Assembly: GCA_003599865.1 (NCBI GenBank)
Contig: QZKS01000095.1
Span: 1 to 55,247 of the forward strand
Direction of reading: 5' to 3'
Length of the DNA stretch: 55,247 bases
Source: Desulfobacteraceae bacterium
GTDB taxonomy: Bacteria > Desulfobacterota > Desulfobacteria > Desulfobacterales > SURF-7
The notes under the pieces: generated by a model
What the model was told of the DNA's origin: nothing
Seen by the model: only the letters and a program-made list of their open reading frames with translations
The model's database searches: none
Part shown: in pieces, positions 3,408 through 43,137 of the stretch
How the letters are laid out: each line of letters begins with the position of its first letter
Position numbering within the stretch: position 1 is the first letter of the stretch
Made by a program: the position numbers and the translations under genes

Positions 3408-3436
3408 TTCAATAACAACAAAAGGAGGAGATCCTT

Positions 3437-4639
3437 ATGAGAGACGCATATATTGTAAGTGCAGTAAGAACACCCGGCTGCAGGAGGAGTAAGGGTGCCC
3501 TGGCTCAGACAAGCCCGGAGAAGCTGATCGTACAGGCATTGAACGGTGCCATTGAAAGAGCAGGTATTGATAAAGGCGTGGTGGATGATCTGATGCTGGG
3601 ATGTTCCTTCCCGGAAGCAGAGCAGGGGCTGAATATCGGAAGAGTCGCCCTTCAGATGGCCGGCTTTCCGGATAATGTTTCCGGTGCAACCGTAAATCGG
3701 TTCTGTGCATCCGGCCTGGAGTCGGTTGCGCAGTCTGCAACAAGAATCATGGCCGGATGGTCTGAAGTCTGTATGGCCGGTGGTGTTGAGTCCATGTCCA
3801 TCGTTCCCATGGGTGGCAATATGCCGAGGCCATTGGCTTCATGGGCCAAAGAAAACCCGGATGTTTACGTATCCATGGGTGTTACCGCAGAAAACGTTGC
3901 CAATCGTTATAAAATCACCCGTGCCCAGCAGGACGAATTTGCGTATCATTCCCAGATGAAGGCTGCTGAAGCTCAGAAAAACGGACATTTTACTGAAATT
4001 ATACCCACCACTGCAGATCGATTCGTGGAAAAAGCAGATGGAACCATTGTCTGTGAAACCTTTGTGCAGACCTTTGATGACGGTGTAAGGCCCACCACTA
4101 TGGAAGGACTGGCCAAGTTGAGAACCGTTTTTGCCGCATTGGGTTCCGTAACCGCCGGTAATTCTTCTCAGACAACCGATGGCGCTGCTGCATCGGTCAT
4201 CATGAGTGGAGATGCGGTTAAGAAATATGGCGTAAAACCGCTTGCCAAGCTGGTATGTTATACCACTGCCGGTTGTAAGGCGGATGAAATGGGCGTCGGA
4301 CCGGCATACGCGATTCCAAAACTTCTGAAGCTTGCCGGTGTGAAGGTAGAAGAAGTCGGGTTGTGGGAACTCAATGAAGCCTTTGCTTCCCAGGCGATTT
4401 ACTCTGCTCAGCAGATCGGCATTGATGATAAAAAATACTGGTCATATGACAGCCCGGATAAAAAGATCAATATCAACGGCGGTGCCATTGCTCTTGGTCA
4501 TCCTCTGGGATGTACCGGTTCAAAATTGCTGGCTACCCTGGTGGCCAATATGCAGAGACTCGGTGTCCGGTATGGCGTTGAGTCCATGTGTATCGGCGGC
4601 GGAATGGGTGCTGCTGCACTGCTTGAGCTCTGCGAATAA
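3437..4639 (+). CDS. fadA: Acetyl-CoA acyltransferase (3-ketoacyl-CoA thiolase)
   Basis: A 400-residue thiolase, normal length for the family, that cleaves 3-ketoacyl-CoA with CoA in the last step of beta-oxidation. The nucleophilic Cys sits in NRFCASGLES (about residue 93), the catalytic His in GHPLGCTG (about 354), and the second Cys in MCIGGGMGAA near the C-terminus; all are intact. The asparagine-bearing ELNEAFASQA segment lies at about 312. The start ATG follows aaaggaggag with good spacing. It is the last gene of the operon and is closed by a strong terminator 32 bases downstream. Together with the upstream fusion enzyme it covers three of the four beta-oxidation steps. Confidence 0.95.
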   Translation: MRDAYIVSAVRTPGCRRSKGALAQTSPEKLIVQALNGAIERAGIDKGVVDDLMLGCSFPEAEQGLNIGRVALQMAGFPDNVSGATVNRFCASGLESVAQSATRIMAGWSEVCMAGGVESMSIVPMGGNMPRPLASWAKENPDVYVSMGVTAENVANRYKITRAQQDEFAYHSQMKAAEAQKNGHFTEIIPTTADRFVEKADGTIVCETFVQTFDDGVRPTTMEGLAKLRTVFAALGSVTAGNSSQTTDGAAASVIMSGDAVKKYGVKPLAKLVCYTTAGCKADEMGVGPAYAIPKLLKLAGVKVEEVGLWELNEAFASQAIYSAQQIGIDDKKYWSYDSPDKKININGGAIALGHPLGCTGSKLLATLVANMQRLGVRYGVESMCIGGGMGAAALLELCE

Positions 4640-30447: not shown

Positions 30448-31086
30448 TCACGTATCTTGTTCCTCCCATATTCGGTTATGCCGTGCAATTTCCCGCTCTT
30501 CTACGGTTTCCACAAAGTGGTCAATATTTTTCATCGCCCGGAATCCTTCATACCCCTCATAAATGAAATCAATGATCCCCCCGACCCCAATCAGGTGGGC
30601 TGCAGTTCGGACGGTTTTGAGGGAAACCGCAACAATCCATTTCTGGCTGAGCCGGTGGAATGTCCGTGTCACTTTGGTGCTTAACCGGATCTGGTAGAGA
30701 CGCTGATTATAATTGTCGAGACTACGGTATACCCTTTCATATTCTTCTTCCGTCAGATCCGGACCGATATTGAGTTTGATCATCTGTTCAACCATACGGT
30801 CGTCCAGATTATCGGTCAGTTCATGCAATTCAATGACTTGACTGACGGCCAATATGATACCCTTATAAATTTTTCCTTTCAGCAGCTTATGGAGTTGTTT
30901 GATACTGGTGTCCCGGAAGGAAAAATCATCCGGTGCATAAAGCTTTTCGAAAAAAAAGACCCCGATTTTGCTATATTCCGGGTTGTTTTTTAAATCCGCA
31001 TAGGTCTGGTTCAGACGATTGGATTGAAAAGCCTGCAGAGCGCGTTTTAATGTTAGGAATTCATCACTTTTTACTGACTTTTTCAT
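30448..31086 (-). CDS. Unknown protein under the palindromic operator (putative storage-granule regulon)
   Basis: A 212-residue, mostly helical protein that I cannot assign. Recognisable segments are LKRALQAFQSNRLNQTYADLKNNPEYSKIGVFF near the N-terminus, FFFEKLYAPDDFSFRDTSI (about 44-62) and a hydrophobic helix with VGGIIDFIYEGYEGFRAM (about 174-191) close to the C-terminus. There is no signal peptide. Its promoter carries the same 17-bp palindromic element as the phasin promoter, with the -10 and start region covered, so it should be co-regulated with the granule coat protein. It lies directly downstream of the phaR gene on the same strand but has its own promoter. Confidence 0.75.
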   Translation of the reverse strand: MKKSVKSDEFLTLKRALQAFQSNRLNQTYADLKNNPEYSKIGVFFFEKLYAPDDFSFRDTSIKQLHKLLKGKIYKGIILAVSQVIELHELTDNLDDRMVEQMIKLNIGPDLTEEEYERVYRSLDNYNQRLYQIRLSTKVTRTFHRLSQKWIVAVSLKTVRTAAHLIGVGGIIDFIYEGYEGFRAMKNIDHFVETVEEREIARHNRIWEEQDT

Positions 31087-31187
31087 TATAACTCATCCAT
31101 GATGGTTTTTTTGAATATTGAATTTATAAACGGTTTCCCGGCGTCATTCAGCTCTGTTCAAAGATGTTTACAGATTGATTTGACTGT

Positions 31188-31232
31188 ATGACGCAATGCG
31201 TTATAGTATGGTAAGGGTCGATCACTTGTCAA
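31188..31232 (-). promoter_or_regulatory. Promoter with PhaR-type operator for the gene 30448-31086
   Basis: On the minus strand, TTGACA (31232-31227), an 18-base spacer and TACTAT (31208-31203) form a promoter. Touching the -10 and covering the start region is ATGACGCAATGCGTTAT (31188-31204), with the perfect 11-bp palindrome core ACGCAATGCGT at 31191-31201. The same 17 bases recur at 33631-33647. Position indicates repression. Confidence 0.7.
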
Positions 31233-31304
31233 GGGGTTTTGCCATTTTTAAGACAACAGGATGGTACTCATTTGAATGATGTTTCCACCGTTAAACAGAT
31301 CAAG

Positions 31305-31877
31305 TCATTGCTTTTTCTTTTTCCGTGGTTGCTCCAGTCGTTCCACTTTTCGATTCAGCTGGTCGATTCTGGCTGCCAGATCTTCCACCTGATCTTTGGA
31401 AGCCAGGTTCATCACACTGAGAACTTCATTCAACCGCCGGTCAATATTATCCTGGATCCAGGTTTTCAGTGTTTCCGTATATCCGACAATCTCGTTTTTC
31501 AGATTCCGGCCTTCCGACTTGGAAAGTTCCTTGTCTTTAACCAGCAGGTTAACCAGTTTATCAACTTCATCTTCCGCCATAGTTAAAGCCCCCTGCCAGA
31601 GGGAGACATATTTTTTTGCGTAATCACTCAAGGTATCGCCACCTTTCCGGAGAAGATCCATTAAAACCTTGGAGGATACAACCTTATCCTGGCTGTTTCT
31701 GTCTCTTGCGATCAGTTGGGACACAATCGATGTGGTCAGGTCTTCGCTTGTCTGATTATCGATAATGGATACTTCCTTGCCGGATTTGATCAGTTTCGCA
31801 AGTTTGTCCATGGATATGTATTTTTTATCCGTGGTGTCATACATTTTTCGATTGGCATATTTTTTTATCTTATGCAT
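31305..31877 (-). CDS. phaR: PhaR, polyhydroxyalkanoate-responsive repressor
   Basis: A 190-residue regulator; the ATG at 31877 follows gggaga and opens directly into the family motif. The N-terminal domain (about 1-60) MHKIKKYANRKMYDTTDKKYI... is the PHB-accumulation regulator DNA-binding domain, with IIDNQTSEDLTTSIVSQLI. The middle part (about 70-130) fits the second PhaR domain, and the C-terminal NLASKDQVEDLAARIDQLNRKVERL is a short hydrophobic module shared with the next two proteins. In the best-studied cases PhaR binds polymer granules and represses phasin genes until granules appear. The gene has its own promoter. Confidence 0.88.
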   Translation of the reverse strand: MHKIKKYANRKMYDTTDKKYISMDKLAKLIKSGKEVSIIDNQTSEDLTTSIVSQLIARDRNSQDKVVSSKVLMDLLRKGGDTLSDYAKKYVSLWQGALTMAEDEVDKLVNLLVKDKELSKSEGRNLKNEIVGYTETLKTWIQDNIDRRLNEVLSVMNLASKDQVEDLAARIDQLNRKVERLEQPRKKKKQ

Positions 31878-31903
31878 ACGATTTTCTCCCATGAGATGAC
31901 ATT

Positions 31904-31949
31904 CTATAACCGACCGGCGTATTCTTGCGTCAAGAAAGACGTTTGTCAA
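31904..31949 (-). promoter_or_regulatory. phaR promoter region with inverted repeat
   Basis: On the minus strand, TTGACG (31933-31928) plus an 18-base spacer and TTATAG (31909-31904) is the better promoter; TTGACA lies upstream at 31949-31944. TTCTTG-CGT-CAAGAA (31922-31936), an inverted repeat, overlaps the proximal -35. It includes TTGCGTCA, part of the element seen at the phasin promoter. Possible autoregulatory site. Confidence 0.4.
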
Positions 31950-32060
31950 TTGTTTATTTGACTGCGATTTTATGGAAGTTTATTTCCGGACGAACACGTC
32001 TGACAGAGAAGTTGTTTACCGAAGAGTTCACCGCTTGTTTTTGAGTGAACCCTACGGTAA

Positions 32061-32108
32061 AAAGCCGGCTGTTTTTATCCCGGTGTTTTTCCCATTCCAG
32101 CCGGCTTT
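32061..32108 (-). terminator. Terminator of the second phaR-like gene
   Basis: Arms AAAGCCGGCTG (32061-32071) and CAGCCGGCTTT (32098-32108) pair perfectly over 11 bp. Read on the minus strand the stem is followed by a short T run, about 65 bases after the stop at 32173. Confidence 0.8.
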
Positions 32109-32172
32109 ACCGGAAGACGGGTAAAGGCATCGTCCCAAACCGGCAGGACCTGCCTTGAGAACCGAATGATAA

Positions 32173-32706
32173 TTATGATTCAAGGGCTTGTTCGGAAACA
32201 CTCAGTTCTTCATTTGCTGTTTCCGGATCTTTCCGGATCTGCTGAACCTGCTGTTCCTGATTCTTTTCCATTTCCTTGATCTGACGGCTGTGCTTCTGTC
32301 CCATTTCTTTTATTTTTTGAGCCTGACGTTTTTCCAGTTCAGCCACCTTATGATTCAGGGCGTCCATGCTGGAGGTCAGCTTTATGATCTGGTCTTTGGT
32401 AGGGAGATTCATCGCACTTAAAATTTTGTTAATTCTGGTATCCAGATTTTTACTGATCCATTTTTTATTGTCATCCACCCACTTCTTGACGGCAACAGTC
32501 TTTTGGCTTGCAGCCTTTTTTGCGGTTTTCCGGGGTTCGGGCAACTGGCTGATCGTTTTCCGGGTGATATCTTTTTCAGTCTTGCTGTCAATAATTTTGA
32601 TTTTTGATTTTTTTGCCAACAGTTTTGCCAGGTCTTCCTTTTTCACATATTTTTTGTTGTCCGTATCATAATAGCGGCCGTTGGCGTACTGCTTGATTGT
32701 TATCAT
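32173..32706 (-). CDS. PhaR-like protein fused to a phasin-type coiled coil
   Basis: A 177-residue protein that begins like PhaR (ITIKQYANGRYYDTDNKKYV... IIDSKTEKDITRKTISQL, about 1-55) but lacks the second PhaR domain. A Lys/Ala-rich linker (about 56-75) leads into WVDDNKKWISKNLDTRINKILSAMNLPTKDQIIKL, the same C-terminal module as PhaR and the neighbouring phasin-like protein. A long Gln/Glu/Lys coiled coil then extends to the end. It could be a granule-bound coat protein that also touches DNA, or a regulator with altered oligomerisation. A GATGAT-N5-ATCATC repeat (32725-32741) lies between its ribosome site and the upstream terminator. Confidence 0.75.
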   Translation of the reverse strand: MITIKQYANGRYYDTDNKKYVKKEDLAKLLAKKSKIKIIDSKTEKDITRKTISQLPEPRKTAKKAASQKTVAVKKWVDDNKKWISKNLDTRINKILSAMNLPTKDQIIKLTSSMDALNHKVAELEKRQAQKIKEMGQKHSRQIKEMEKNQEQQVQQIRKDPETANEELSVSEQALES

Positions 32707-32765
32707 GGTATTCTCCTTCAGCTTGATGATAAGTGATCATCGGTAATCTGTAATTCATCATAAAT

Positions 32766-32807
32766 AAAGCTTCCTGCCGTCATTTTTTCATGATGGCAGG
32801 AAGCTTT
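32766..32807 (-). terminator. Hairpin terminator after the phasin-like gene
   Basis: AAAGCTTCCTGCC (32766-32778) pairs with GGCAGGAAGCTTT (32795-32807) over 13 bp. The stem extends inward through GTCAT/ATGAT with one wobble, giving a very long hairpin. It lies 57 bases after the stop at 32864. The T tract on the minus strand is imperfect (tttattta), so partial read-through into the phaR-like gene is possible. Confidence 0.75.
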
Positions 32808-32863
32808 CATACCTTCTATCCGAAACCGGCAATTTCGGAAAGGATCAGTATTGTCTGAAATGG

Positions 32864-33532
32864 TTATGCAGCATATTGGGTGCTCAAGGTTTCCACTTTT
32901 TTACTCAGGGCCTTCATACTTTGACTCAATTTCTCGATATCCTGTTTGCTCGGCAAATTAAGCTGCTCGGGAATGGCTTTGACACGTTTTTCAATCTTCG
33001 TTTCAATGGATTTTTTACCCGGGATCTTTTTGACCGTTTTTTTGCCGGTCTTCATTATTTCCTCAACAATCAGCCGGGTGTCTTTCTCGATTCCCTGCAG
33101 GAGTTCTTTTCCGTCTTCAATATAGGACTCCATTTTCTTCCGGGTGTCTGTTTTGACATTTTCAAAATATTCTTTCCCGTCATCCAGCAGGTTGTTGATT
33201 GCCTTTCGCGGGTTGCTCTTGGCTTTTTTGGCGAACGACTTTCCGTCTTTCATATAGATGTCAACTTTTTTCCGGGTGTCCTTCCGGGTATCCTCAAGGA
33301 ATTCTCTGCCGTCATCGATCAGACTGTCAATTTTTTTGCGTGGACTCTTCTTGAGGTCCTGAACAAATTCTTTTCCGGTCTTGATTGGTTTTTGAATGAA
33401 TTTTTCATTGAATTCCCTGGCAGTATCCGACAGGTTGCTTTTTACCTCTTCGACAGTTCGAATGGTATAGAATTTGGATTTCTGAGAACTCTTTTTACTG
33501 GTTGTTTTTCCGGTCGCTTTTTTGGTAGCCAT
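32864..33532 (-). CDS. Phasin-like granule coat protein with internal repeats
   Basis: A 222-residue, Lys-rich helical protein. After a basic N-terminus (about 1-20) comes an array of about 20-25-residue repeats with the pattern hydrophobic-DDG-(R/K)-(E/S)-(F/Y)-...-DTRKK: SLIDDGREFLEDTRKDTRKK, IYMKDGKSFAKKAKSNPRKA, LLDDGKEYFENVKTDTRKK, YIEDGKELLQGIEKDTR. The C-terminus LNLPSKQDIEKLSQSMKALSKKVETL is the short module shared with the two PhaR-type neighbours and reminiscent of PhaF/PhaI-type phasins. It would coat PHA or neutral-lipid inclusions in the cytoplasm. Its promoter holds two palindromic operators. Confidence 0.75.
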   Translation of the reverse strand: MATKKATGKTTSKKSSQKSKFYTIRTVEEVKSNLSDTAREFNEKFIQKPIKTGKEFVQDLKKSPRKKIDSLIDDGREFLEDTRKDTRKKVDIYMKDGKSFAKKAKSNPRKAINNLLDDGKEYFENVKTDTRKKMESYIEDGKELLQGIEKDTRLIVEEIMKTGKKTVKKIPGKKSIETKIEKRVKAIPEQLNLPSKQDIEKLSQSMKALSKKVETLSTQYAA

Positions 33533-33600
33533 TTTTTTACCCCCTGATATGTTTTATGGTTAGATTTTTCTTTACTTTTATACTCGTAATCCGGTATTTA

Positions 33601-33656
33601 TTCATAACGCATTGCGTCATGACAACAAATATGACGCAATGCGTTATGAATGTCAA
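33601..33656 (-). promoter_or_regulatory. Phasin promoter with two operator copies in a perfect 20-bp inverted repeat
   Basis: TTCATAACGCATTGCGTCAT (33601-33620) and ATGACGCAATGCGTTATGAA (33631-33650) are exact reverse complements separated by 10 bases. Each has an 11-bp palindromic core (33607-33617, 33634-33644), 27 bp centre to centre. On the minus strand TTGACA (33656-33651) and CATATT (33633-33628) are spaced 17 bases, so one operator fills the spacer and the other covers about +8 to +27. A repressor bound here would block the promoter. The element lies in the divergent gap shared with the acyltransferase operon. Confidence 0.8.
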
Positions 33657-33776: not shown

Positions 33777-35462
33777 ATGGCAGAAAGAATGACAAATGCG
33801 GATAATTTTTGGTTGTGCATGGATGACCCCACCAATTTAATGGTAATTACAGCCTTCATGGAGTTCAAAGAACCCGTCAATTTCAAACGCCTTCAGGCTA
33901 CCATTGACAGCCGCCTTGCCTCATTCCCCAGATTTCAGATGCGGGTTGTAAGACCGAAATCCGGAGTCGGCCTGCCGAGTTGGGAGATGGACCCGAATTA
34001 TGATCCCAGATCCCATGTACAACGAATTGCCTTGCCTTCCCCGGGCGATAAAAAAGATCTTCAGGAGATGATCAGCAACCTGACCATGACGCCCCTTGAT
34101 CTGAACAAGCCGCTATGGCAGATCCATCTGATTGAAAATTACGGTGAGGGAAGCGTTATTTTCTTCCGGATACACCATGCCATTGCAGACGGAATTGCAC
34201 TGGTCTACGTTCTGCTTTCCGCGACAGATTCGGATCCGAACGCACCATGGCCGGACAGCAGCAAGCCGCGCTTGAAAAAGCGTTCGTTGCATATCGGATC
34301 CTTTCTATCGATGGATGCCATGGTCGGATCCATCGGAAACAGCCTGAAAACCACACAGAAGTTCGGTAAAAAAATGATCAGGGAAGTCGAAAAAATGATT
34401 TCCAATACCGAATATCGCAAGAAGGTGGTTCAGACAACCGGCCGCTTTCCCACAGATTTTACCAAAGTGCTGTCCAAACACACGATTATGAGTTCGGATC
34501 CGAATACTCCTTTCAAGGGGAAGCTGGGTGTTCGAAAACTGGTTGCCTGGACCGACCCCATGGAACTCAGCAAGATCAAGTCCGTTGGCAAAGCCATCAG
34601 CATGACAACCCTTAACGATGTCCTGATTGCGACCGTAACCGGCGCGATGCGCCGATATCTTAAAACCCGGCATGTGGCTGTGAATGAACTGGATCTTCGT
34701 GTAACGGTTCCGGTGAATATTCGCAAACCGGGTACGGAGTTCGAGCTGGGTAATAAATTCAGTCTGGTTTTTCTTCCCTTGCCCGTATATCTGGAAGATC
34801 CGGTTCTTCGATTGAAGGAAGTCAAAAGACGTATGGATCATTTAAAAACATCACCGGATCCTTATATCAACTTTGTCTTGCTGAGTACGATTGGGTATCT
34901 TCCGCCGGGACTCGCACAAAAAGCTGCTCAGTTGTTTGGGAATAAGGCCTCCGGAGTCATGACCAATGTTCCGGGACCGCAGCAGCCTTTGTATTTTTCC
35001 GGGAGTAAGATCGAAAATATCATGTTCTGGGTGCCCAGATCCGGAAAAATCGGATTGGGTATCAGCATCCTCAGCTATGACGGTAAGGTTACCGTGGGAA
35101 TTGCTTCAGACGAAAAACTGATGCCGGACCCGGAAGTCCTGCTGGAGGGATTTGAGGAGGAATTCAACTATCTGCTGGAGCTGGTTCAAACCGGAAAAAT
35201 CTATGATGAGCCGCTTGTGCTGCACGATCGGTATAAAGAAGCGCAGGATGCGACGAAAAATCAGAAAGAAGAAGATGATGATTCGCCATCCGATCATCCG
35301 GAAAAGCAATACGGCAGATGCCGGGCGGTCACCAAAAGTGGAAAACCATGCAGAAACAAGGCAGTGAATGATTCCGGGTATTGCAAGGTTCATTCGACCG
35401 TTTCTGAAGAAGGCAGCCAGATCAAAGATGTGGTGCAATTGATGAAGGAGTTGATTGAATGA
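33777..35462 (+). CDS. Wax ester synthase / diacylglycerol acyltransferase (WS/DGAT)
   Basis: A 561-residue acyltransferase of the bacterial WS/DGAT family, which joins acyl-CoA to a fatty alcohol or diacylglycerol to make storage wax ester or triacylglycerol. The active-site motif HHAIADG (HHxxxDG) is at about 126-132. Family segments ERMTNADNFWLCMDD (N-terminus), LNDVLIATVTGAMRRYL (about 283) and GVMTNVPGPQQPLYFSG (about 390) are intact. The C-terminus has an extra domain: an acidic linker, then a C-X9-C-X10-C-X2-H cluster (about 520-545) that looks like a small zinc site. A strong gaggagg precedes the ATG; a TTGAAA-N16-TATTGT promoter is possible at 33699-33726. First gene of a six-gene operon. 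Confidence 0.9.
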   Translation: MAERMTNADNFWLCMDDPTNLMVITAFMEFKEPVNFKRLQATIDSRLASFPRFQMRVVRPKSGVGLPSWEMDPNYDPRSHVQRIALPSPGDKKDLQEMISNLTMTPLDLNKPLWQIHLIENYGEGSVIFFRIHHAIADGIALVYVLLSATDSDPNAPWPDSSKPRLKKRSLHIGSFLSMDAMVGSIGNSLKTTQKFGKKMIREVEKMISNTEYRKKVVQTTGRFPTDFTKVLSKHTIMSSDPNTPFKGKLGVRKLVAWTDPMELSKIKSVGKAISMTTLNDVLIATVTGAMRRYLKTRHVAVNELDLRVTVPVNIRKPGTEFELGNKFSLVFLPLPVYLEDPVLRLKEVKRRMDHLKTSPDPYINFVLLSTIGYLPPGLAQKAAQLFGNKASGVMTNVPGPQQPLYFSGSKIENIMFWVPRSGKIGLGISILSYDGKVTVGIASDEKLMPDPEVLLEGFEEEFNYLLELVQTGKIYDEPLVLHDRYKEAQDATKNQKEEDDDSPSDHPEKQYGRCRAVTKSGKPCRNKAVNDSGYCKVHSTVSEEGSQIKDVVQLMKELIE

Positions 35463-35671
35463 AATCGCTCGATTTTGAACCGATAAAACCGCTTTATACC
35501 GGTTTGAAGGAGAGGGTAGCCAGGATTTATTTTACCCTGGTCAAGTTGCCGTTAATGCTGTTTGCCATTGTTGCCGGGTTTATATTTGAATTTATCCTGG
35601 AATTGCCTTTTATTCTGTTGATTTTTTTCGGCTATCGGTCAAAGAGAAAAAGGATGTTCCCTTTGTCGTGA
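35459..35671 (+). CDS. Small membrane protein of the WS/DGAT operon
   Basis: A 70-residue protein that starts with an ATGA overlap on the acyltransferase stop. It has a short soluble N-terminus (about 1-25), one long or two short hydrophobic helices (LVKLPLMLFAIVAGFIF and ILELPFILLIFFGY, about 27-59), and a basic tail RSKRKRM. The hairpin-like two-helix shape with a proline in each helix is what monolayer or droplet anchors often look like, but I do not recognise the family. Translational coupling to WS/DGAT suggests it helps place that enzyme at the membrane (inference). Confidence 0.7.
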   Translation: MKSLDFEPIKPLYTGLKERVARIYFTLVKLPLMLFAIVAGFIFEFILELPFILLIFFGYRSKRKRMFPLS

Positions 35672-35707
35672 TGGCGGACACTTGATTGAACAGACAACAA
35701 AAATAAT

Positions 35708-35953
35708 ATGATCTTGCCGGATAAAGTTCAAAAAATTGCCGATAACGTTCCGGGGAAATATTATGTAGATATCCGCTGCATCGGTTGTAATGTATGCGCG
35801 GAAATTGCACCTGAAAATTTTCGCTCGGATCTGGAAGAAGGGCACGAATACATTTGCAAACAGCCGACAACCGAAACCGAAGAGGCGTTATGTCTGGAGG
35901 CGATGGAAATTTGTCCTGTCAATGCCATCGGGAATGATGGCGTTTTGGAGTAA
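35708..35953 (+). CDS. 4Fe-4S ferredoxin
   Basis: An 81-residue single-cluster ferredoxin. CIGCNVC (about 25-31) with IAPENFRSD after it, and the distant CP of EICPVNAI (about 69), give the four Cys of one [4Fe-4S] cluster, as in the Pyrococcus/Desulfovibrio ferredoxin I type where the second cluster is lost. It follows the small membrane protein by 36 bases and precedes the reductase genes by 63, without an obvious terminator. It may carry electrons to a reductive step on the acyl chain; the partner is unknown. No good ribosome site is visible. Confidence 0.85.
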   Translation: MILPDKVQKIADNVPGKYYVDIRCIGCNVCAEIAPENFRSDLEEGHEYICKQPTTETEEALCLEAMEICPVNAIGNDGVLE

Positions 35954-36016
35954 AATGTTTGCCAAAAATTCGATTTGAAATCGACTGACTTTCCAATGGA
36001 ACCATAGGAGGAAATC

Positions 36017-38092
36017 GTGAAGCAAATTGTAAGCATCAGCTTAGGGTCAAGCAAAACCGATTATGAGTTTGAGACGGAATTTCTGGGGCAGGATTTTAAC
36101 ATCAAACGCCTGGGCACTGACGGCGACCTGGAAAAAGCGGCGGAGATGCTTTTACAATGGGATAAAAATGCGGATGCGATCGGGCTTGGGGGTGTCAAAT
36201 TCCCGTATGGCATGGGGCCCAGATATCTCAAGAAGAAGCATCTGGACAAGCTGGAAAGACTGGGTGCCCAGATCGAAACTCCGGTTACCATTGGAAGCCG
36301 GTTGCGGGATGTATCGTTTGAATGGTGTCTTCGCTTTATCCAGTATAAGTTCGGTAACTATTTTGACAATGCGAGAGTTCTGTTTCTTTCCGGGATGGAT
36401 AATTACCGGATTGCCAAAGTGATGTCTGAGTTTACCGATAATCTGACCTTTGCCGATCCGATTTTTGAGAATGGGATTGCCAAGTTTTTAGGGTCCCTGA
36501 AAGACCTGAAGAGCTATGCACATGGTGTCCATGAACTTTTACAGTGGATCCCGAGCAAACGCCTTTCTTCTTCCGTGGTTCCATTGAAAGCCTGGAATGA
36601 TTACATCATTAAAAAGGCCATGCAAAAGGCCAATATCATCGTCGTGCCCGGCTACGGTTTTTATCAATATCTGGAAGATGCATCCCTGGAGGAACTGGGG
36701 GGCAAGACCATCATTACACCCACCGCATATGATGATCGTATTGAGTTTTTAAAAGAAAGGGGTGTGGACGTTATCATCGATACCACGCCGAAGATTCTGG
36801 AGAGAGTAGTCGCTCCCAATGTCCTGGAGGCTTTGATCATCGCAGCCCTCGGGAGAAATCGGGATCAGATTCGAAAGGATGATCTTCTGGAAATTATCAG
36901 CAAGCAGAAAATGGACCCAAGGGTTGTCTACCCTTCGGGAAGTCCAAAACGGGTAAACCGTTTCGCTTTTGTGATCCACCCTCTATCCAAGGAGTTTCTT
37001 AAAAAGGACAAGATGGTCGATTTTATGGCCGGCTTCACCCCGCCGGCCTTTCTGGATGCGGTTGAAAAGGTGGTCGCTTATGCACCCCCCTGGGTTTATT
37101 CCCGGGTCACGGGCATCAAATCGCCGACAGGGGCGGAAGCGGAGGGCTGGTTGATTACCGTCGGGGGAACCCCGAAACAGATGCTCGCTCATAATCCGGA
37201 GTTCACCTATAAGCGGTTATTGCAGGCTGCCCGTATGGCCAAAAGAATGGGTGCTCAGATCATGGGACTTGGGGCGTTTACCAAAGTGGTCGGGGATGCC
37301 GGTGTAACGGTTGCCAAAAAAGCGGAAATTCCGATTACCACCGGAAACAGTTACAGCGCTTCCGGCGCCCTGTGGGCCGCTGCCGATGCGGTCCGGAGGA
37401 TGGGGCTTTTGAAGGTGGAGAAGGGCAAACGGATCATTGGAAAAACGATGGTGCTTGGTGCAACCGGTGCCATTGGATCGGTCTGCTGCCGCCTTCTGGC
37501 AAAGGCGTTCAAGGAAGTTTATATGGTCGGGAGAAACACCGCCAAACTGCTGGCCCTTAAAGAATCCATTCTCGAGGAAACCCCTGGTGTGACGATCAAG
37601 GTGACGACAAGGCCGGATCGGTATATTGCGGATATGGATGTCATTGTTACCGCCACATCCGGAGCCGGCAAAACCGTATTGGATATCACCAAGGCAAAAC
37701 CGGGGTGTGTGATCACCGATGTGGCCAGACCCCTGGATCTCTCACCGGAGGACGTTGCCAAACGTCCGGATGTTCTGGTCATTGAATCCGGAGAGATTGA
37801 GCTTCCCGGAAATCCGGAAATGAAAAATATCGGACTTCCCCACAAGGTTGTGTATGCCTGCCTTGCCGAGACCATTGTTCTGGCTCTGGAAGGCCGCTAT
37901 GAAGTGTTTACCATTGGAAGGGATATTGAATGGGAAAAAGTCCGGGAGATCTATAAGATGGGCCTTAAACACGGTATGAAGCTGGCTGCGATTTCCGGTG
38001 TGAACGGCGTATTCAGTGATGAAGACATTCAGAAAGTGAAACAGCTCGCTCTGGAGGCCAGAAAGAAAAACAGGAAAGCCGTTGGTGAATAA
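36017..38092 (+). CDS. Two-domain protein with AAR-like acyl reductase C-terminus (Cys form)
   Basis: A 691-residue protein starting at GTG after aggagg. The N-terminal ~340 residues (ISLGSSKTDYEFETEF..., DAIGLGGVKFPY) are not a family I recognise. The C-terminal ~300 residues resemble cyanobacterial acyl-ACP reductase: GAQIMGLGAFTKVV, TTGNSYSASGALWAA (about 442), the NADPH site LGATGAIGSVCCRLL (about 480), and YACLAETIVLALEGRYEVFTIGR then LKHGMKLAAISG. Cys615 in YACLAE falls where I align the catalytic Cys of AAR. If so it reduces an acyl thioester to fatty aldehyde for wax-ester synthesis by the upstream WS/DGAT. This assignment is motif-based, not tested. Confidence 0.7.
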   Translation: MKQIVSISLGSSKTDYEFETEFLGQDFNIKRLGTDGDLEKAAEMLLQWDKNADAIGLGGVKFPYGMGPRYLKKKHLDKLERLGAQIETPVTIGSRLRDVSFEWCLRFIQYKFGNYFDNARVLFLSGMDNYRIAKVMSEFTDNLTFADPIFENGIAKFLGSLKDLKSYAHGVHELLQWIPSKRLSSSVVPLKAWNDYIIKKAMQKANIIVVPGYGFYQYLEDASLEELGGKTIITPTAYDDRIEFLKERGVDVIIDTTPKILERVVAPNVLEALIIAALGRNRDQIRKDDLLEIISKQKMDPRVVYPSGSPKRVNRFAFVIHPLSKEFLKKDKMVDFMAGFTPPAFLDAVEKVVAYAPPWVYSRVTGIKSPTGAEAEGWLITVGGTPKQMLAHNPEFTYKRLLQAARMAKRMGAQIMGLGAFTKVVGDAGVTVAKKAEIPITTGNSYSASGALWAAADAVRRMGLLKVEKGKRIIGKTMVLGATGAIGSVCCRLLAKAFKEVYMVGRNTAKLLALKESILEETPGVTIKVTTRPDRYIADMDVIVTATSGAGKTVLDITKAKPGCVITDVARPLDLSPEDVAKRPDVLVIESGEIELPGNPEMKNIGLPHKVVYACLAETIVLALEGRYEVFTIGRDIEWEKVREIYKMGLKHGMKLAAISGVNGVFSDEDIQKVKQLALEARKKNRKAVGE

Positions 38093-38171
38093 AGGCGGAA
38101 TGCTCATTTGGACAATGACTTCGGCGACACAATGAATCATACAGCAACTACGGTTTCATGAGGAGATCAAC

Positions 38172-40259
38172 ATGAAGCAGATCATTAATATCAGTTTGGG
38201 TACCAGTAGGGATGATTACGAATTCGAAGCCACTTTTATGGATCAGAAGTTTCTGCTTAAACGGCTTGCTACGGACGGGGATTTTGAGAAAGCCTCAGAC
38301 CTTTTGCTGTCCTGGAACAAAAAAGCCGATGCGATCGGATTGGGGGGGATCAGCTTTCCCTATGAAATCGGCTCAGGAGCCCTGCCGGATAAAAATAGCC
38401 GTGATCTGATGAAGGTCGCCAAACAGATTCAGACGCCTGTCACAAACGGCAATATTCTTCGAAATGTCGGTCAGGAGTGGTCCTTGCGCCATACCCAGTT
38501 CATATTTGGCAATAATTATTTCAACAATGCACGGGTTCTGTTCTTCTCCGGTATGGCAAGTGCAAAGATCGCAAGGGTAATGTCGGAGTATACCGATAAC
38601 ATGCAGTTTGCCGATCCGCTTTTGAAAAATGGAATCCCCCGTCTGATCGGTTCTATCAAAGAATTGGAATTATATGCCGATGGGGTGCATGACATTCTGA
38701 AATGGATGCCGGGAAGAAAATTTGTCACAGAGTTTTCTCCCATGAAAAAAACAAACGACTATCTGTTGCGTAATGCCGTCCGCCAGTCCCATGTTCTGGT
38801 GGTTCCCCATTTTAATTTTTATAAATATCTGAACTGTTTTTCTGCTGAAGATATTGAGGGAAAAATCATCATCACATCCACAGCCTATGAAGACAGGGTC
38901 AATTACCTGAAAGATAAAGGCGTATCCGTTATTATCGATACCACTCCAAAAATATTGGATAAAGTGGTTGGGGTCAGTATACTGGAAGCGCTTTTGTTTT
39001 CGGCATTGGATATTCCTCAAAAAGAGGGCAGCGATGATGATCTGCTGGAGATCATTTCAGAATTGCAGATGGAACCGAGAATCATCTACCCGTCGGGGGA
39101 GAAAAAACGGGTCAATCGATTTGCCTATATCGTATATCCGCTCAGCCAGGAATATTTAAAGAAAATCAAGCCGATTGAAATGATATCCGATTTCGCACCC
39201 AGTGCCATGAACACCGTGGAAAAGATGATGGCCTATTCACCACCCTTTGTATACTCCAAGGTCACCGGCATCAAATCCAAAACCGGAGTGGAAGCCGAAG
39301 GATGGCTGATTGCGCTGGGAGAGACACCGGAACAGATGCAGGCGCACGGTCCTGAGTTTACGACAAAACGCATATTGCAGGCGGCAAAGATCGCCAAAAA
39401 ACTGGGCGCTCAGATCATGGGAATCGGATTGTTGCCAAAGGCCTTGAAAGATGCAAGCATTGAGGTGGCAAAGCATGCGGTCCTTCCCATAACAACCGGA
39501 AACAGTTATGTGGCCTCCACCGCACTTTGGGCGGCTGCGGAAGCGGTCCGGAGGATGGGTTTGACCAGGTTGCAGCCGAATAAGAAATTGAAAGCCAAGA
39601 CCATGGTGATCGGAGCGACAGGAGCTGTTGGATCCATCTGTTCACGTCTTCTGGCAATCGCTTTCGAAGAAGTATATATCGTCAGCAAGAATATGGCCAA
39701 ACTGCTTGCCCTGCAGGAGTCCATTGAGGAGGAAGCCCCGGAGGTGAAACTCAATGTATCGACACGGGCAGACACCCATCTTGATGAAATGGATGTCATT
39801 GTCGCGGCCAGTGCGGAGGCCAAGAATGTGCTGGATATCATGAGGTTGAAGCCGGGTTGTGTGGTTACGGACATTACCCGCCCCATGAGCCTTTCCATGG
39901 ATGACATCGCCAGAAGACCGGACATTCTCGTTATCCGCAGCGGTGAAATTCTTCTGCCCGGGAAACATATCGAAATGAAGGATATCGGCCTGCCGGATCA
40001 GGTCGTATATGCCGGGCTTGCGGAAACCATTATCCTGGCGCTGGAGGGCCGCTTTGAGACATTCACCGTCGGAAGCGACACCCAGTGGGATAAGGTCAGG
40101 GAGATTTATCGGCTGGGTTTAAAGCATGGAATGAAACTGGCTGCCATATCCGGTTTGGATGGTGTGATCAGTGATGATCAGATCGACAGGGTGAAAGAAT
40201 TTGCAGTAAAGGAATTAAAGAAACATGAAAGTAGTAAAAAAGCTTCAAGACGCAAGTAA
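38172..40259 (+). CDS. Paralogue of the AAR-like protein (Gly at the Cys position)
   Basis: A 695-residue tandem duplicate of the previous gene: of the first 59 residues 39 are identical, and the C-terminal halves match throughout. It keeps the TTGNSYVASTALWAA segment and the IGATGAVGSICSRLL nucleotide site. Residue 615 is Gly (YAGLAETIILALEGRF), where the upstream copy has Cys. It may therefore be a non-catalytic partner, a subunit of a heteromer, or an enzyme with another chemistry. The C-terminus is Lys-rich (KKHESSKKASRRK). Its last 35 bases overlap the hydrolase gene. An ATG with a gaggag ribosome site marks the start. Confidence 0.7.
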   Translation: MKQIINISLGTSRDDYEFEATFMDQKFLLKRLATDGDFEKASDLLLSWNKKADAIGLGGISFPYEIGSGALPDKNSRDLMKVAKQIQTPVTNGNILRNVGQEWSLRHTQFIFGNNYFNNARVLFFSGMASAKIARVMSEYTDNMQFADPLLKNGIPRLIGSIKELELYADGVHDILKWMPGRKFVTEFSPMKKTNDYLLRNAVRQSHVLVVPHFNFYKYLNCFSAEDIEGKIIITSTAYEDRVNYLKDKGVSVIIDTTPKILDKVVGVSILEALLFSALDIPQKEGSDDDLLEIISELQMEPRIIYPSGEKKRVNRFAYIVYPLSQEYLKKIKPIEMISDFAPSAMNTVEKMMAYSPPFVYSKVTGIKSKTGVEAEGWLIALGETPEQMQAHGPEFTTKRILQAAKIAKKLGAQIMGIGLLPKALKDASIEVAKHAVLPITTGNSYVASTALWAAAEAVRRMGLTRLQPNKKLKAKTMVIGATGAVGSICSRLLAIAFEEVYIVSKNMAKLLALQESIEEEAPEVKLNVSTRADTHLDEMDVIVAASAEAKNVLDIMRLKPGCVVTDITRPMSLSMDDIARRPDILVIRSGEILLPGKHIEMKDIGLPDQVVYAGLAETIILALEGRFETFTVGSDTQWDKVREIYRLGLKHGMKLAAISGLDGVISDDQIDRVKEFAVKELKKHESSKKASRRK

Positions 40260-41946
40260 ATCCATGATGCGTTTCGTGGTGAATGGAATACCCACAAACC
40301 TGGTCAATGCCGGTTACAACACTTACAGCAAGATTTATAAAGGACAAATCAGTCTGGGATTGCCGGTATCAAAGGAGCTGGTAGTCAGCCAGGAGGAAAT
40401 TCGAAACAGCGCCGTAGGAAAATTGGCGTTGGCGCTCTATCATATCATTCTGCGTGCAACCGATATTCGGATACCACGTGACCAAATCAAGCTGGTGATT
40501 CTGGATGAACTGGCAAAGCAGAGATTGCGGATGACGGAAAATGTGATCCTGCTGAATCAGATCGATCTGAATTATATTGTGCAGCAGCGGTTTAAAATAC
40601 CCAAAAGCTACCTTCCCAATATTTTAACGGAGGCCGGACGTCGCCGGATATTGAAAGAGTCCCTCAGAACAGACAGAATGCCCGCCTATTTTGAGAGCGA
40701 GATCGAAGAGCTGGAGCAGAACGGCCGCGGGAATTATGAAATCGTTTATTATCGGGATTTTACGGAAGAGGGAAAAGAGATCGGATTTCGGCGGCTGGTC
40801 AGCATGGAGGATGTGACCGCCAATGACAATCGGCCTGCGCTGACCCTGGTTCCGGGATTTGCCAACAACAGCAATTGTTTTAATATCAATAACCGGTATT
40901 CCATGGCCAAGGATCTCGCGGATATGGGGTTCTGGGTTTATCTTTTCGATCCGCGAGGGGTCGGGGTGAACGAGGGGCGCTTTGATCCATATTACACCAT
41001 TGATACGATGATTGATTATGATCTGGCAACCGTGGTGCGGTTTATTCATGCACGCAGCCACGGGAAACCGACCATTCTTCTGGGGCACAGCATGGGAGGG
41101 GTGGTTTCTGAGAACATGATCCTGAACTGGGCGCTTCGTGAGCATCTGGATGAGGTTCATATCCTGACCGAAAAACAGAAAAGCATTTTAAACCAGACGC
41201 TGCCGCCTCTGGTGGAGACAGAGCAATATTTAAAAACGGTTCGAGGGGTTATTTCCCTCGGGTCTCCGAAATTTTTCAACCGCAAATCCCATCTTTTTTT
41301 CCCGATTGCATTGTGGCTTAACCATATTTCTCGGATATTCCGTCTCAAGCATGTGCCGGTTCAGGAAATTTCGAAAGTCATGACGGAACTGCCGCTTCTG
41401 AAAGATTTTGTCAGGATCCTGTCCAATCACAATATCGGGGATTTGAATTTTCTGATTTCTCCGGAAAACCATCTGGATGACAAACATTTCGTGGAAAGGT
41501 ATCTGCAGGTTGCCACGGAATCCATTCCGCTCGGACTGGGTTTCCAGTGCCTGAAAGCTGTTTATGACGGTAAAGGCTTCAAACGCATGGATGACAGCCG
41601 TCTGAATTACTCTGAATTGTCTTTCCTGTTTCCGGATAATATCCCGGTATTTCATTTCTGGGGAACAGCCGACCACCTGGCGTCTGTTGACAACCTGAAA
41701 TACAGCGAACTGTATCCCCATCAATACAAGCAAACCTACCATATCAAATCCGTACAGGATTTAAAGAAGATTGAAATTCCCCAGGAACAGAGCCTGCTGA
41801 TTGATTTTGTTATTGAAGGGGCCAATCATATCGATCTGTTATATGGTAAAGCGGCCAGAGACTATATCAATCCCATTATCATGCAGATTGTTGAAAAGGT
41901 CTGGGGTGACTGGGCATATGATACGGAGTTTGCCAAAACAGCGTAG
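40225..41946 (+). CDS. Alpha/beta hydrolase (Ser type) of the storage-lipid operon
   Basis: A 573-residue protein. About 190 helical residues precede a hydrolase domain with LTLVPGFANNSNCF (oxyanion-hole segment, about 210), the nucleophile elbow LGHSMGG (about 290), the Asp in FWGTADHLAS (about 480) and the His in EGANHIDLL (about 533), a complete Ser-Asp-His triad. Length and N-terminal extension recall PhaC-like proteins, but the nucleophile is Ser, not the Cys of PHA synthases. It may be a lipase/depolymerase or thioesterase for the stored ester. It starts inside the preceding gene (35-base overlap); a later ATG at 40264 lacks a ribosome site. Confidence 0.75.
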   Translation: MKVVKKLQDASKSMMRFVVNGIPTNLVNAGYNTYSKIYKGQISLGLPVSKELVVSQEEIRNSAVGKLALALYHIILRATDIRIPRDQIKLVILDELAKQRLRMTENVILLNQIDLNYIVQQRFKIPKSYLPNILTEAGRRRILKESLRTDRMPAYFESEIEELEQNGRGNYEIVYYRDFTEEGKEIGFRRLVSMEDVTANDNRPALTLVPGFANNSNCFNINNRYSMAKDLADMGFWVYLFDPRGVGVNEGRFDPYYTIDTMIDYDLATVVRFIHARSHGKPTILLGHSMGGVVSENMILNWALREHLDEVHILTEKQKSILNQTLPPLVETEQYLKTVRGVISLGSPKFFNRKSHLFFPIALWLNHISRIFRLKHVPVQEISKVMTELPLLKDFVRILSNHNIGDLNFLISPENHLDDKHFVERYLQVATESIPLGLGFQCLKAVYDGKGFKRMDDSRLNYSELSFLFPDNIPVFHFWGTADHLASVDNLKYSELYPHQYKQTYHIKSVQDLKKIEIPQEQSLLIDFVIEGANHIDLLYGKAARDYINPIIMQIVEKVWGDWAYDTEFAKTA

Positions 41947-41969: not shown

Positions 41970-42422
41970 TTACCATTTCAGTGTCCGGATATTCCGGATC
42001 ACCTTCTGGGCAATGTCCCCGATAATCGGCATCTTCCAGAAAAAGGGGATGGTGAGTCCGATATCCAGGATGGATGACCTGTTGGCGGGAGGTGAAGATC
42101 GGTCTTTGCTTCCCGTTTTTTTTTCCGGCATGACGGCATCCAGGGAAAGATGAAATCGAAAACCAAGACGTTCCATTGTGGAACCGGGCTTTCCGGAATC
42201 CGCCGGCAAGGCTGCAATTTTTTCTTTGAACGGGCCATCGAAAGAGGGTTCCTCTTCGATATGATCCATAATCTCAAAGGCGGTATCAATTTTTTGGGAA
42301 GAATTCCGGGATACTGTTTTTGCTGCTTTTTTCGTCCGTTTCCGATCTTGCGGTCGGGGATTGTTTTTCTTCAGATTTTCCGCTGTTTCAGCGAGTTTTT
42401 TTCTTTTTCTTGGGACCGCCAT
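41970..42422 (-). CDS. Basic protein with hydrophobic C-terminus, possible partner of the ParA-like ATPase
   Basis: A 150-residue protein starting at 42422 (ggag 7 bases before the ATG), overlapping the ParA-like gene by 35 bases. The first ~40 residues are Lys/Arg-rich (AVPRKRKKLAETAENLKK, DRKRTKKAAKTV), the middle is low-complexity and acidic/polar, and the last 35 residues (SILDIGLTIPFFWKMPIIGDIAQKVIR) could form an amphipathic or membrane-associating segment. I recognise no family. In ParA-type positioning pairs the partner often carries a basic N-terminus that stimulates the ATPase; together with the overlap this suggests such a role, with the C-terminus attaching to the cargo. Confidence 0.65.
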   Translation of the reverse strand: MAVPRKRKKLAETAENLKKNNPRPQDRKRTKKAAKTVSRNSSQKIDTAFEIMDHIEEEPSFDGPFKEKIAALPADSGKPGSTMERLGFRFHLSLDAVMPEKKTGSKDRSSPPANRSSILDIGLTIPFFWKMPIIGDIAQKVIRNIRTLKW

Positions 42423-43137
42423 TATTTGTCTCCAGCAAAAAAGTGATGTTTTTTGAAATTTCTTCAATATCCGCAACCGCGCGTGATGCCTGATAGGAAA
42501 ACCGTTTGTTCTGTTCGACCGATAAGGCGTATTCCTTCAGGTTCATGCCGTCCCGGTTGAAGTTTTCATAGACCGACCGATGGGGATAGACAACTTCCAT
42601 ACACTCCACATGACTGGGAAGGATGTCTGTAAAATATCCAATGACATTTCCGGTATTGGATTGTGGATGGATAAAGGATGGAAGCACATAAAAGGTCTTT
42701 CGTTTTTTGGGGGCGATGTTCGTGATTTCCCTGATGATCGGATACAGATTATCGGCAAATGCCAGCTCATCATTGGTGGATGTGCGCATGGGGATGATGA
42801 CAAGATCCGAAGATGCACAGGCAAAACGAGTATGGAGCTTGCCGGTGCTCTCGCCCGGAATGTCCATGATGATCAATTCATTATGCGCGGCAATGGTTTT
42901 GATGCTGTTTTGAAAAACTTCTTTCTGTGTGCTTGAAATGTGATGAAAAGAAACCTTTCCGGAAGCAAGACCTTCTTCTTCTCTCTGGATCCACCAGTTT
43001 TTCAGACTGCCCTGCGGGTCCAGTTCCACCAGCGCAATCGACCTGAACTTGCTGTTGATCTGTTGCGAGAATGCCGTGTTAAGGGCCAGTGTGCTTTTCC
43101 CGGTTCCGCCTTTTGTTTGAACAAAGCTTACAATCAT
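42388..43137 (-). CDS. ParA/MinD-family ATPase
   Basis: A 249-residue ATPase of the ParA family. The deviant Walker A box is KGGTGKST (about 9-16), with the signature Lys; switch I is ELDPQGSLKNWW (about 38) and Walker B is LIIMDIPG (about 88). The Lys/Arg-rich C-terminal tail (GGPKKKKKTR) could aid nonspecific DNA binding. No ParB or parS-like sequence is seen, and the gene is not beside a replication origin, so it is an orphan ParA of the cargo-positioning sort. It is followed by an overlapping basic-protein gene on the same strand and converges on the storage-lipid operon. Confidence 0.88.
   Translation of the reverse strand: MIVSFVQTKGGTGKSTLALNTAFSQQINSKFRSIALVELDPQGSLKNWWIQREEEGLASGKVSFHHISSTQKEVFQNSIKTIAAHNELIIMDIPGESTGKLHTRFACASSDLVIIPMRTSTNDELAFADNLYPIIREITNIAPKKRKTFYVLPSFIHPQSNTGNVIGYFTDILPSHVECMEVVYPHRSVYENFNRDGMNLKEYALSVEQNKRFSYQASRAVADIEEISKNITFLLETNNGGPKKKKKTR

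Follow-up and report, generated by a model that had tools for sequence, protein, structure and literature searches.

When considering how an anaerobe of the sulfate-reducer type might store neutral lipid as wax ester, one question is central: which enzyme would open the way from an acyl thioester to the fatty alcohol? The question is raised by a DNA stretch of 55,247 nt (the window), contig QZKS01000095.1 of assembly GCA_003599865.1 (Desulfobacteraceae bacterium, SURF-7; 5.0-Mb genome). Its positions 33777-41946 carry a plus-strand run of six open reading frames, in which an initial annotation had seen a self-contained pathway: a wax ester synthase/diacylglycerol acyltransferase (WS/DGAT, or WS for short), a small protein, a ferredoxin (Fd), two proteins with C-termini resembling the acyl reductase AAR (here AAR1 and AAR2), and an alpha/beta hydrolase. 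All six are indeed present (Table 1) and make up one arm of a larger unit, an island seen in many Desulfobacterales, whose other, divergent arm (30448-33532) adds genes for a FFLEELY-motif protein, two PhaR-like proteins and a phasin-like protein. Judging from the sequence, we consider it fairly probable that this is a conserved island of Desulfobacterales for the storage of wax esters, or of neutral lipid in general, with an AAR-type route to the alcohol. This upholds the idea of a locus for neutral-lipid storage that relies on an acyl reductase of the AAR type, wax ester being the most likely product; the unit extends beyond six genes. In what follows, L numbers denote loci and G numbers genomes, the host genome of the window being G000 and C27 one of its contigs.

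A survey of 59 genomes of the order, that of the window among them, detected AAR1 in 15, and exactly these 15 also have WS/DGAT (naive Fisher p 2.5e-14, ignoring shared ancestry); they span ten family codes. AAR1 is full-length in 14 of them and is represented in G004 by two contig-end pieces beside a full-length AAR2-type copy; the WS/DGAT of G003 is present as fragments. Marginal matches were scored as absent (WS in G024 at 2.7e-5 and in G028 at 1e-4; AAR in G024 at 2.1e-9). In seven of the 15, all draft assemblies (G017, G035, G043, G048, G049, G050, G054), AAR1 and WS lie on separate contigs, and there is no WS within about 6-8 kb on either side of AAR1 in L056 (G043) and L059 (G035). Known or candidate acyl reductases of wax-ester routes (the AcrB, FAR and HMGR/FcrA types) track WS/DGAT far less closely than AAR1 does: AcrB-like and FAR-like proteins each occur in 3 of the 15 WS-bearing genomes versus 1 of the 44 others (p 0.047 in either case), and the HMGR/FcrA family (PF00368) in 5 of the 15 versus 7 of the 44 (p 0.26). 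At the thresholds used, none of the three was found in 8 of the 15; the AcrB-like and FAR-like queries were the proteins of the window's own genome (E 1e-40 and 1e-20, respectively), the AcrB search scored no more than the first 20 candidates per genome, and SDR-type Acr1, a family too broad for this purpose, was not searched for.

A scan of genome contigs yielded 45 loci, nearly all from Desulfobacterales or uncultured deltaproteobacteria, plus one from SAR324 and one from a gammaproteobacterial metagenome-assembled genome (MAG). The order WS-Fd-AAR1-AAR2-hydrolase is repeated in many other Desulfobacterales contigs and, hence, is not due to chance; conservation of the operon in relatives, which the initial annotation had proposed as a check, is confirmed, some relatives having it rearranged. 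WS accompanies AAR2 in 23 of 25 loci, the remaining two being cut off upstream. In the 15 of these loci that are well flanked (at least 7 kb upstream and at least 4.5 kb downstream), WS and PhaR1 are present in all 15, the phasin in 14, a ferredoxin gene immediately preceding AAR1 in 13, the hydrolase in 13, the FFLEELY protein in 11, a fusion of an iron-containing alcohol dehydrogenase with an SCP2 lipid-binding domain (Fe-ADH::SCP2) in 11, and PhaR2 in 9. L038 and L063 have their WS several kb upstream, with the phasin gene located on the side of ferredoxin and AAR1, and L049 and L058 have Fe-ADH::SCP2 placed between WS and AAR1. Twelve AAR2-less loci with more than 2.5 kb downstream, some of them cut off upstream, include one with an adjacent WS, seven with the ferredoxin and three with Fe-ADH::SCP2 (in L062 at 37% identity).

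What kind of enzyme is AAR1? The AAR and PigE reductase models match residues ~315-690 of both AAR1 and AAR2. The closest named sequence model for the C-terminal half of AAR1 is that of PigE (NF053554, positions 1-363, E 1e-54); the AAR model TIGR04058 matches with E 1.7e-20, and AAR1 was not assigned to this equivalog because its score of 73.7 bits (75.7 in the genome search) is under the cut-off of 449.7. The AlphaFold model (pLDDT 81) superimposes, over residues 315-673, on Synechococcus AAR (SeAAR, 6jzq) with Z 29.6, rmsd 3.9, 325 of 345 residues aligned and 25% identity, and on the carmabin TAD domain (9e4s) with Z 29.5, on par with the cyanobacterial AAR; Foldseek aligns it to 6jzy with E 1.5e-19. 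The structural runners-up are glutamyl-tRNA reductase (Z 14.0) and shikimate dehydrogenase (Z 13.1). A shikimate/quinate dehydrogenase identity, which, along with the lack of an acyl site, would have spoken against the annotated function, is ruled out for AAR1 by a Z of ~13 versus ~29 for AAR and TAD, and the cysteine of the acyl site is present. Specifically, Cys615 of AAR1 aligns with C294 of SeAAR, described as the acyl-chain-carrying residue (PMC7089970), and R635 with the phosphate-binding R314. In a set from which rows shorter than 640 aa were dropped, leaving 67 full-length rows (43 AAR1 and 24 AAR2, the window's two included), Cys is found in 42 of the 43 AAR1 sequences, the window's among them, the only exception being that of Desulfonema magnum (L067), which has Ser; Arg is found in all 43. 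We infer that AAR1 is an AAR-type acyl reductase that would form an aldehyde from an acyl thioester via Cys615. Since TamH, an AAR-like fusion, was reported to be active on an ACP-bound (acyl carrier protein-bound) substrate with NADH, and not on acyl-CoA or with NADPH (PMC9594044), the acyl carrier and the cofactor of AAR1 are left as alternatives. Residues 1-310 retrieved no PDB sequence at E <0.01 (best 0.042), and the fold search hardly probed them; this N-terminal domain matches no Pfam family in the window's copy, with scattered weak matches for other copies, and nothing in the plasmid collection.

Both C-termini do resemble AAR, as the initial annotation had it, but two active canonical reductases are ruled out, as AAR2 has neither the cysteine nor an equivalent of R635. 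At the catalytic-Cys position, none of the 24 AAR2 sequences has Cys (Gly in 23, Ser in one), and at that of R635 none has Arg (Ser in 18, Thr in four, Ala in two), with the GxxGxxG glycines of the dinucleotide loop retained in all 24. Because the acyl-accepting Cys is lost, AAR2, as far as can be judged from the alignment, cannot employ the canonical covalent mechanism. In a quick tree of 55 of the 70 rows (15 rows from named loci were omitted for thinning), AAR2 is monophyletic (18 rows, SH-aLRT 100). The ratio of nonsynonymous to synonymous substitution rates (dN/dS) against L032 is 0.072 for AAR2 (0.044 for its C-terminal domain) and 0.045 for AAR1, these being rough values with dS >1; by this estimate AAR2 is under strong purifying selection and is maintained, and a decaying copy is ruled out by the single clade together with the ratio of 0.072. 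The structure alignment was made without the AAR2 of L041 (in-frame stop in the chosen range) and that of L068 (by choice). Most likely, AAR2 serves as a non-acylating partner subunit of AAR1.

The next question is how the aldehyde would become an alcohol. The initial annotation had noted that no aldehyde reductase was evident, and no dehydrogenase gene is indeed seen in the window's island, but Fe-ADH::SCP2 is encoded inside the island of many relatives. This protein, a 610-aa fusion in L056, is encoded beside the genes for ferredoxin and AAR1 in L053, L056 and L059 and at other places of the cluster in many loci with AAR2, in several of which the Fe-ADH gene runs past the end of the stretch examined and the SCP2 part was not seen. 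In these relatives, Fe-ADH::SCP2 is probably the enzyme of the aldehyde reductase step. It would be a concrete candidate, with AAR2 as its rival, for a missing step: the aldehyde reductase of the two-step (Acr1) wax-ester route is called 'unknown' in a passage of PMC11948995 and uncharacterised in one of PMC5806253.

From gene content, conservation, co-occurrence, conserved residues, predicted fold and the motif described below, all sequence-based, we infer every biochemical and regulatory step of the following scheme. With acyl-ACP or acyl-CoA as the donor, a long acyl chain would be loaded onto Cys615 of AAR1 and released as a fatty aldehyde with NAD(P)H, as suggested by the AAR homology and the conserved residues. 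The aldehyde would be reduced to the fatty alcohol by the Fe-ADH with its SCP2 domain, split and located elsewhere in this genome, or by another reductase, and WS/DGAT would join the alcohol with a second acyl thioester into a wax ester. The phasin-like protein would coat the droplet, the PhaR-like proteins would sense it and, by analogy with PhaR of polyhydroxybutyrate (PHB), act as repressors of the divergent promoter by way of the ACGCANTGCGT palindrome, and the alpha/beta hydrolase would mobilise the stored ester. AAR2, kept beside AAR1, would act as its non-acylating partner.

Several observations weigh against this scheme. WS/DGAT could make triacylglycerol (TAG). Cyanobacterial Aar in A. 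baylyi is reported to have given aldehyde and little wax ester, which was blamed on poor flux to the aldehyde reductase (PMC5806253); a dedicated, clustered aldehyde reductase would presumably remedy this flux problem of Aar in Acinetobacter. The window's genome lacks the 610-aa fusion and has a weaker, split counterpart on contig C27 (L104:5382-9023), where 26 nt separate an Fe-ADH gene (46% identity) from an SCP2-like gene behind it (47%), the next gene in the row resembling aldehyde:ferredoxin oxidoreductase, under the family cut-off. These split genes are not wax-specific, because similar Fe-ADH and SCP2-like matches occur, on separate contigs, in G002, a genome devoid of both WS and AAR1. 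The window's genome also encodes AcrB (NF005539, 644.8 bits, cut-off 549, listed as G000 C27), a FAR-like protein and a protein of the HMGR/FcrA family, possibly FcrA, so that the fatty alcohol need not derive from AAR1; with these candidate fatty acyl-CoA reductases and the Fe-ADH/SCP2-like genes elsewhere in the genome, the pathway is 'self-contained' only approximately. There is, in addition, a gene for a polyhydroxyalkanoate (PHA) synthase, and the phasin and PhaR may serve PHA. Finally, no WS lies within 8 kb of AAR1 in the SAR324 locus (L069), in the gammaproteobacterial one (L070) and in Desulfonema magnum (L067, the one with Ser for Cys), and extra AAR copies in G001, G006 and G054 have no WS match in the stretch examined.

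Three other explanations have to be considered. In the first, which we hold to be unlikely, AAR2 itself is the aldehyde reductase: it would bind the free aldehyde and reduce it, AAR1 and AAR2 together leading from acyl thioester to alcohol. The dinucleotide-loop glycines kept in every copy while Cys and R635 are lost in every copy, the single clade under purifying selection, the company of WS and the dehydrogenase-free island of the window would all fit such a role. However, Fe-ADH::SCP2 is also encoded in 11 of the 15 well-flanked AAR2 loci, which weakens the notion of AAR2 as a stand-in for a missing aldehyde reductase and excludes a simple replacement, and the loss of R635 argues against the use of NADPH, with no precedent seen. 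A stricter version, an obligate two-subunit, alcohol-forming acyl reductase in which the aldehyde would be handed directly from AAR1 to AAR2 with the ferredoxin as the electron source, strikes us as quite improbable; if true, wax-ester synthesis would here rely on a four-electron reductase of its own, derived from a duplicated AAR.

A second explanation, to be regarded as similarly unlikely to the simple aldehyde reductase role of AAR2, is that the locus mainly serves TAG or PHA granules, the AAR product being destined for membrane alkyl-ether lipids, hydrocarbons or something else. Ether lipids are found in related sulfate reducers. Diacylglycerol is usable by WS/DGAT enzymes, a PHA synthase is encoded, the phasin and PhaR families take their names from PHA, and AAR1 lacks an adjacent WS in some genomes. 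Yet neither TAG nor PHA requires an acyl reductase, whereas AAR1 and WS/DGAT co-occur exactly in the 59 genomes and are frequently linked in one operon.

The third explanation, very doubtful in our view, derives the fatty alcohol from AcrB, the FAR-like or the FcrA-like protein encoded elsewhere and gives AAR1, AAR2 and the ferredoxin a role in aldehyde detoxification or in breaking down wax, where they would turn the aldehyde into an acyl thioester. All three candidate reductases are found in the window's genome, the hydrolase at the end of the operon would liberate alcohol, and the row of Fe-ADH, SCP2-like and AOR-like genes would suit such a pathway; but 8 of the 15 WS-bearing genomes have none of the three within the limits of the search given above, and the AAR-family enzymes characterised in PMC7089970 and PMC9594044 are described as working in the reducing direction.

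Returning to the proposed wax-ester island, its acyltransferase passes the curated cut-off of TIGR02946 and is the sole match to this model in the genome. The window's WS/DGAT has the HHxxxDG motif, which 24 of 25 near-full-length homologues share; only the distant second WS of L058 does not. Outside both Pfam WS/DGAT domains, at about residues 515-541, there is a CCCH zinc-knuckle-like motif (DUF5763-like), which was found by pattern in 19 of these 25 homologues and by eye in three more (L034, L045, L071), and was not seen in the WS of L037 and L068 or in the second WS of L058. A DVxQ(I/L)M tail comes next in the window's WS and in the four tails inspected (L034, L045, L068, L071). The second, distant WS/DGAT genes (25-27% identity) follow AAR2 at L049:8328-9617 and L058:10941-12278, with no exact HHxxxDG in the pattern scan. 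The 70-aa protein has no Pfam or NCBIfam match, and among the 45 loci tblastn matched it only in L031-L034. In the hydrolase, S289, D483 and H535, invariant in 21 sequences, constitute a candidate catalytic triad; its predicted model (pLDDT 65), for which the best fold match is lysosomal acid lipase (6v7n), is too weak for a substrate assignment.

Table 1. Features of the island in the window, and further reductase genes of the host genome (by locus)
Feature	Position	Strand	Remarks
FFLEELY-motif protein	30448..31086	-	NF047641 185.8 bits, cut-off 55; outer end of divergent arm
Third ACGCANTGCGT palindrome core	31191..31201	.	105 bp upstream of FFLEELY gene
PhaR-like regulator PhaR1, PHB_acc_N DNA-binding domain	31305..31949	-	PF07879 71.6 bits; TIGR01848 72.4 bits
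Second PhaR-like protein, PhaR2	32173..32706	-	PF07879 53.8 bits; TIGR01848 45.3 bits, under cut-off
Phasin-like protein, probable droplet coat	32864..33532	-	PF05597 30.7 bits vs 28.8; TIGR01837 35.4 vs 94.7
Perfect inverted repeat (21-bp arms, two ACGCANTGCGT cores), probable PhaR-type operator	33600..33651	.	phasin/WS divergent gap
WS/DGAT acyltransferase, HHAIADG, C-terminal CCCH knuckle	33777..35462	+	TIGR02946 382.2 bits, cut-off 309.95; DUF5763
70-aa protein, hydrophobic by eye	35459..35671	+	4-nt overlap with WS/DGAT; no family
Single-cluster [4Fe-4S] ferredoxin	35708..35953	+	PF13370 (Fer4_13) 69.4 bits
AAR1, 691 aa, GTG start: 310-aa N-terminal domain and AAR-like thioester reductase, Cys615	36017..38092	+	
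AAR2, 695 aa, AAR1 paralogue (58% identity), Gly at catalytic-Cys position	38172..40259	+	
Alpha/beta hydrolase, probable ester lipase	40225..41946	+	PF12146 (Hydrolase_4)/Abhydrolase_1; 35-nt overlap with AAR2
AcrB gene, as listed	L116:5571-7592		
FAR-like gene, as listed	L115:2714-4384	-	
HMGR-family gene, as listed	L117:3286-4566		

The divergent arm suggests how the island might be regulated. PhaR1, the true start of which is probably an internal ATG, passes PF07879 for its DNA-binding domain and does not reach the TIGR01848 equivalog cut-off of 109.45; the phasin-like protein meets the PF05597 gathering score marginally and does not reach TIGR01837. The inverted repeat between the two arms of the island (repeat arms 33600-33620 and 33631-33651) is kept in L032, with changes matched in both repeat arms. 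The window contains three copies of ACGCANTGCGT, all exact, with no others at one mismatch, against 0.96 expected with one mismatch allowed; since 8 of 100 shuffles also reach three, the count in the window carries little weight by itself. In the 626,814 bases of the 45 loci, 14 exact copies are found in 10 loci versus 0.33 expected, the loci being related and not independent; eight permuted palindromes used as a control gave 0-2 copies each. Twelve of the 14 are at promoters of island genes, and most loci have no exact copy. The Bradyrhizobium PhaR is reported to bind TGCRNYGCASMA (PMC6201568), to which the GCA-N-TGC core of the island is related, albeit not identical. The island is probably regulated through the conserved palindrome, and 33600..33651 is, by analogy, a probable PhaR-type operator that the PhaR-like proteins would bind. 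A sigma-70 scan (22 matches versus 12.0 expected, sd 3.6) was not used as evidence.

The island can be compared with several known systems. AAR1 shares with SeAAR (TIGR04058) the fold of its C-terminal half, the GATGxIG loop, the catalytic Cys and the phosphate-site Arg, but is far under the family cut-off and carries the additional N-terminal domain, and the island, unlike SeAAR, combines WS/DGAT and ferredoxin neighbours with a tandem Cys-less paralogue. PigE and TamH, of the prodiginine and tambjamine pathways, likewise contain an AAR-like thioester reductase within a longer protein; there, however, it is fused to an aminotransferase and serves amine synthesis, whereas in AAR1 it is fused to an unrelated domain and encoded beside a wax synthase. 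In Acinetobacter and Marinobacter (Acr1, AcrB, FarA, FcrA and WS/DGAT), too, WS/DGAT takes an acyl thioester and a reductase-derived fatty alcohol; here, in contrast, the acyl reductase would be of the AAR type, and the storage, regulation and hydrolase genes form one conserved island. The same chemical logic was followed in Synechococcus engineered with AAR, an alcohol dehydrogenase and WS/DGAT, for which wax-ester lipid bodies are reported (PMC3594298); that pathway is synthetic, whereas the arrangement described here is natural and occurs in anaerobes. With the PHB granule system the island has in common a PhaR-type DNA-binding domain, a phasin-like protein and a GCA/TGC-rich palindrome at the phasin promoter, but its phasin/PhaR arm diverges from WS/DGAT and not from a PHA synthase.

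The main text of a survey from 2023 that covers the gene contexts of WS/DGAT contains no word starting with 'Desulfo' (PMC10351704), and PMC11948995, where AcrB was identified with the PRK07201 profile, mentions Desulfobacteraceae a single time, in connection with a WS/DGAT of an ANME MAG, which is taken there as cross-contamination. Among the literature matches listed (titles and abstract openings), no description of this gene combination was found, which is weak evidence, subscription papers being poorly covered. What would be new is an enzyme combination not found described and a strictly Cys-less AAR paralogue, the wax-ester pathway being of a known kind. An AAR-type acyl reductase encoded beside WS/DGAT in many anaerobes of the sulfate-reducer type leads to the prediction that wax esters are stored by a range of Desulfobacterales, Desulfamplus and an Olavius symbiont among them, and that a PhaR-type regulatory circuit would control neutral lipid instead of PHB.

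AAR-like genes were also seen in other settings. The extra copies in G001, G006 and G054 (L079:10389-12440, L080:8849-10918 and L081:3131-5158, the latter two on the minus strand) bear the Cys and fall outside the AAR2 clade. The Desulfonema magnum homologue of AAR1 is at L067:8001-10085, with no WS or ferredoxin match within 18 kb. The genes in L069 and L070 are of the AAR1 type, with both the Cys and the N-terminal domain, no other island gene having been matched in 18 kb; their presence in SAR324 and in the gammaproteobacterial MAG possibly reflects transfer. As for the neighbourhood of the island, a gene named by eye as ParA-like follows the operon at 42388-43137; it is also found in L032 and comes directly after AAR1 in L064 and L065. 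At the start of the window, genes at 984-4639 resemble, by eye, a beta-oxidation hydroxyacyl-CoA dehydrogenase and a thiolase.

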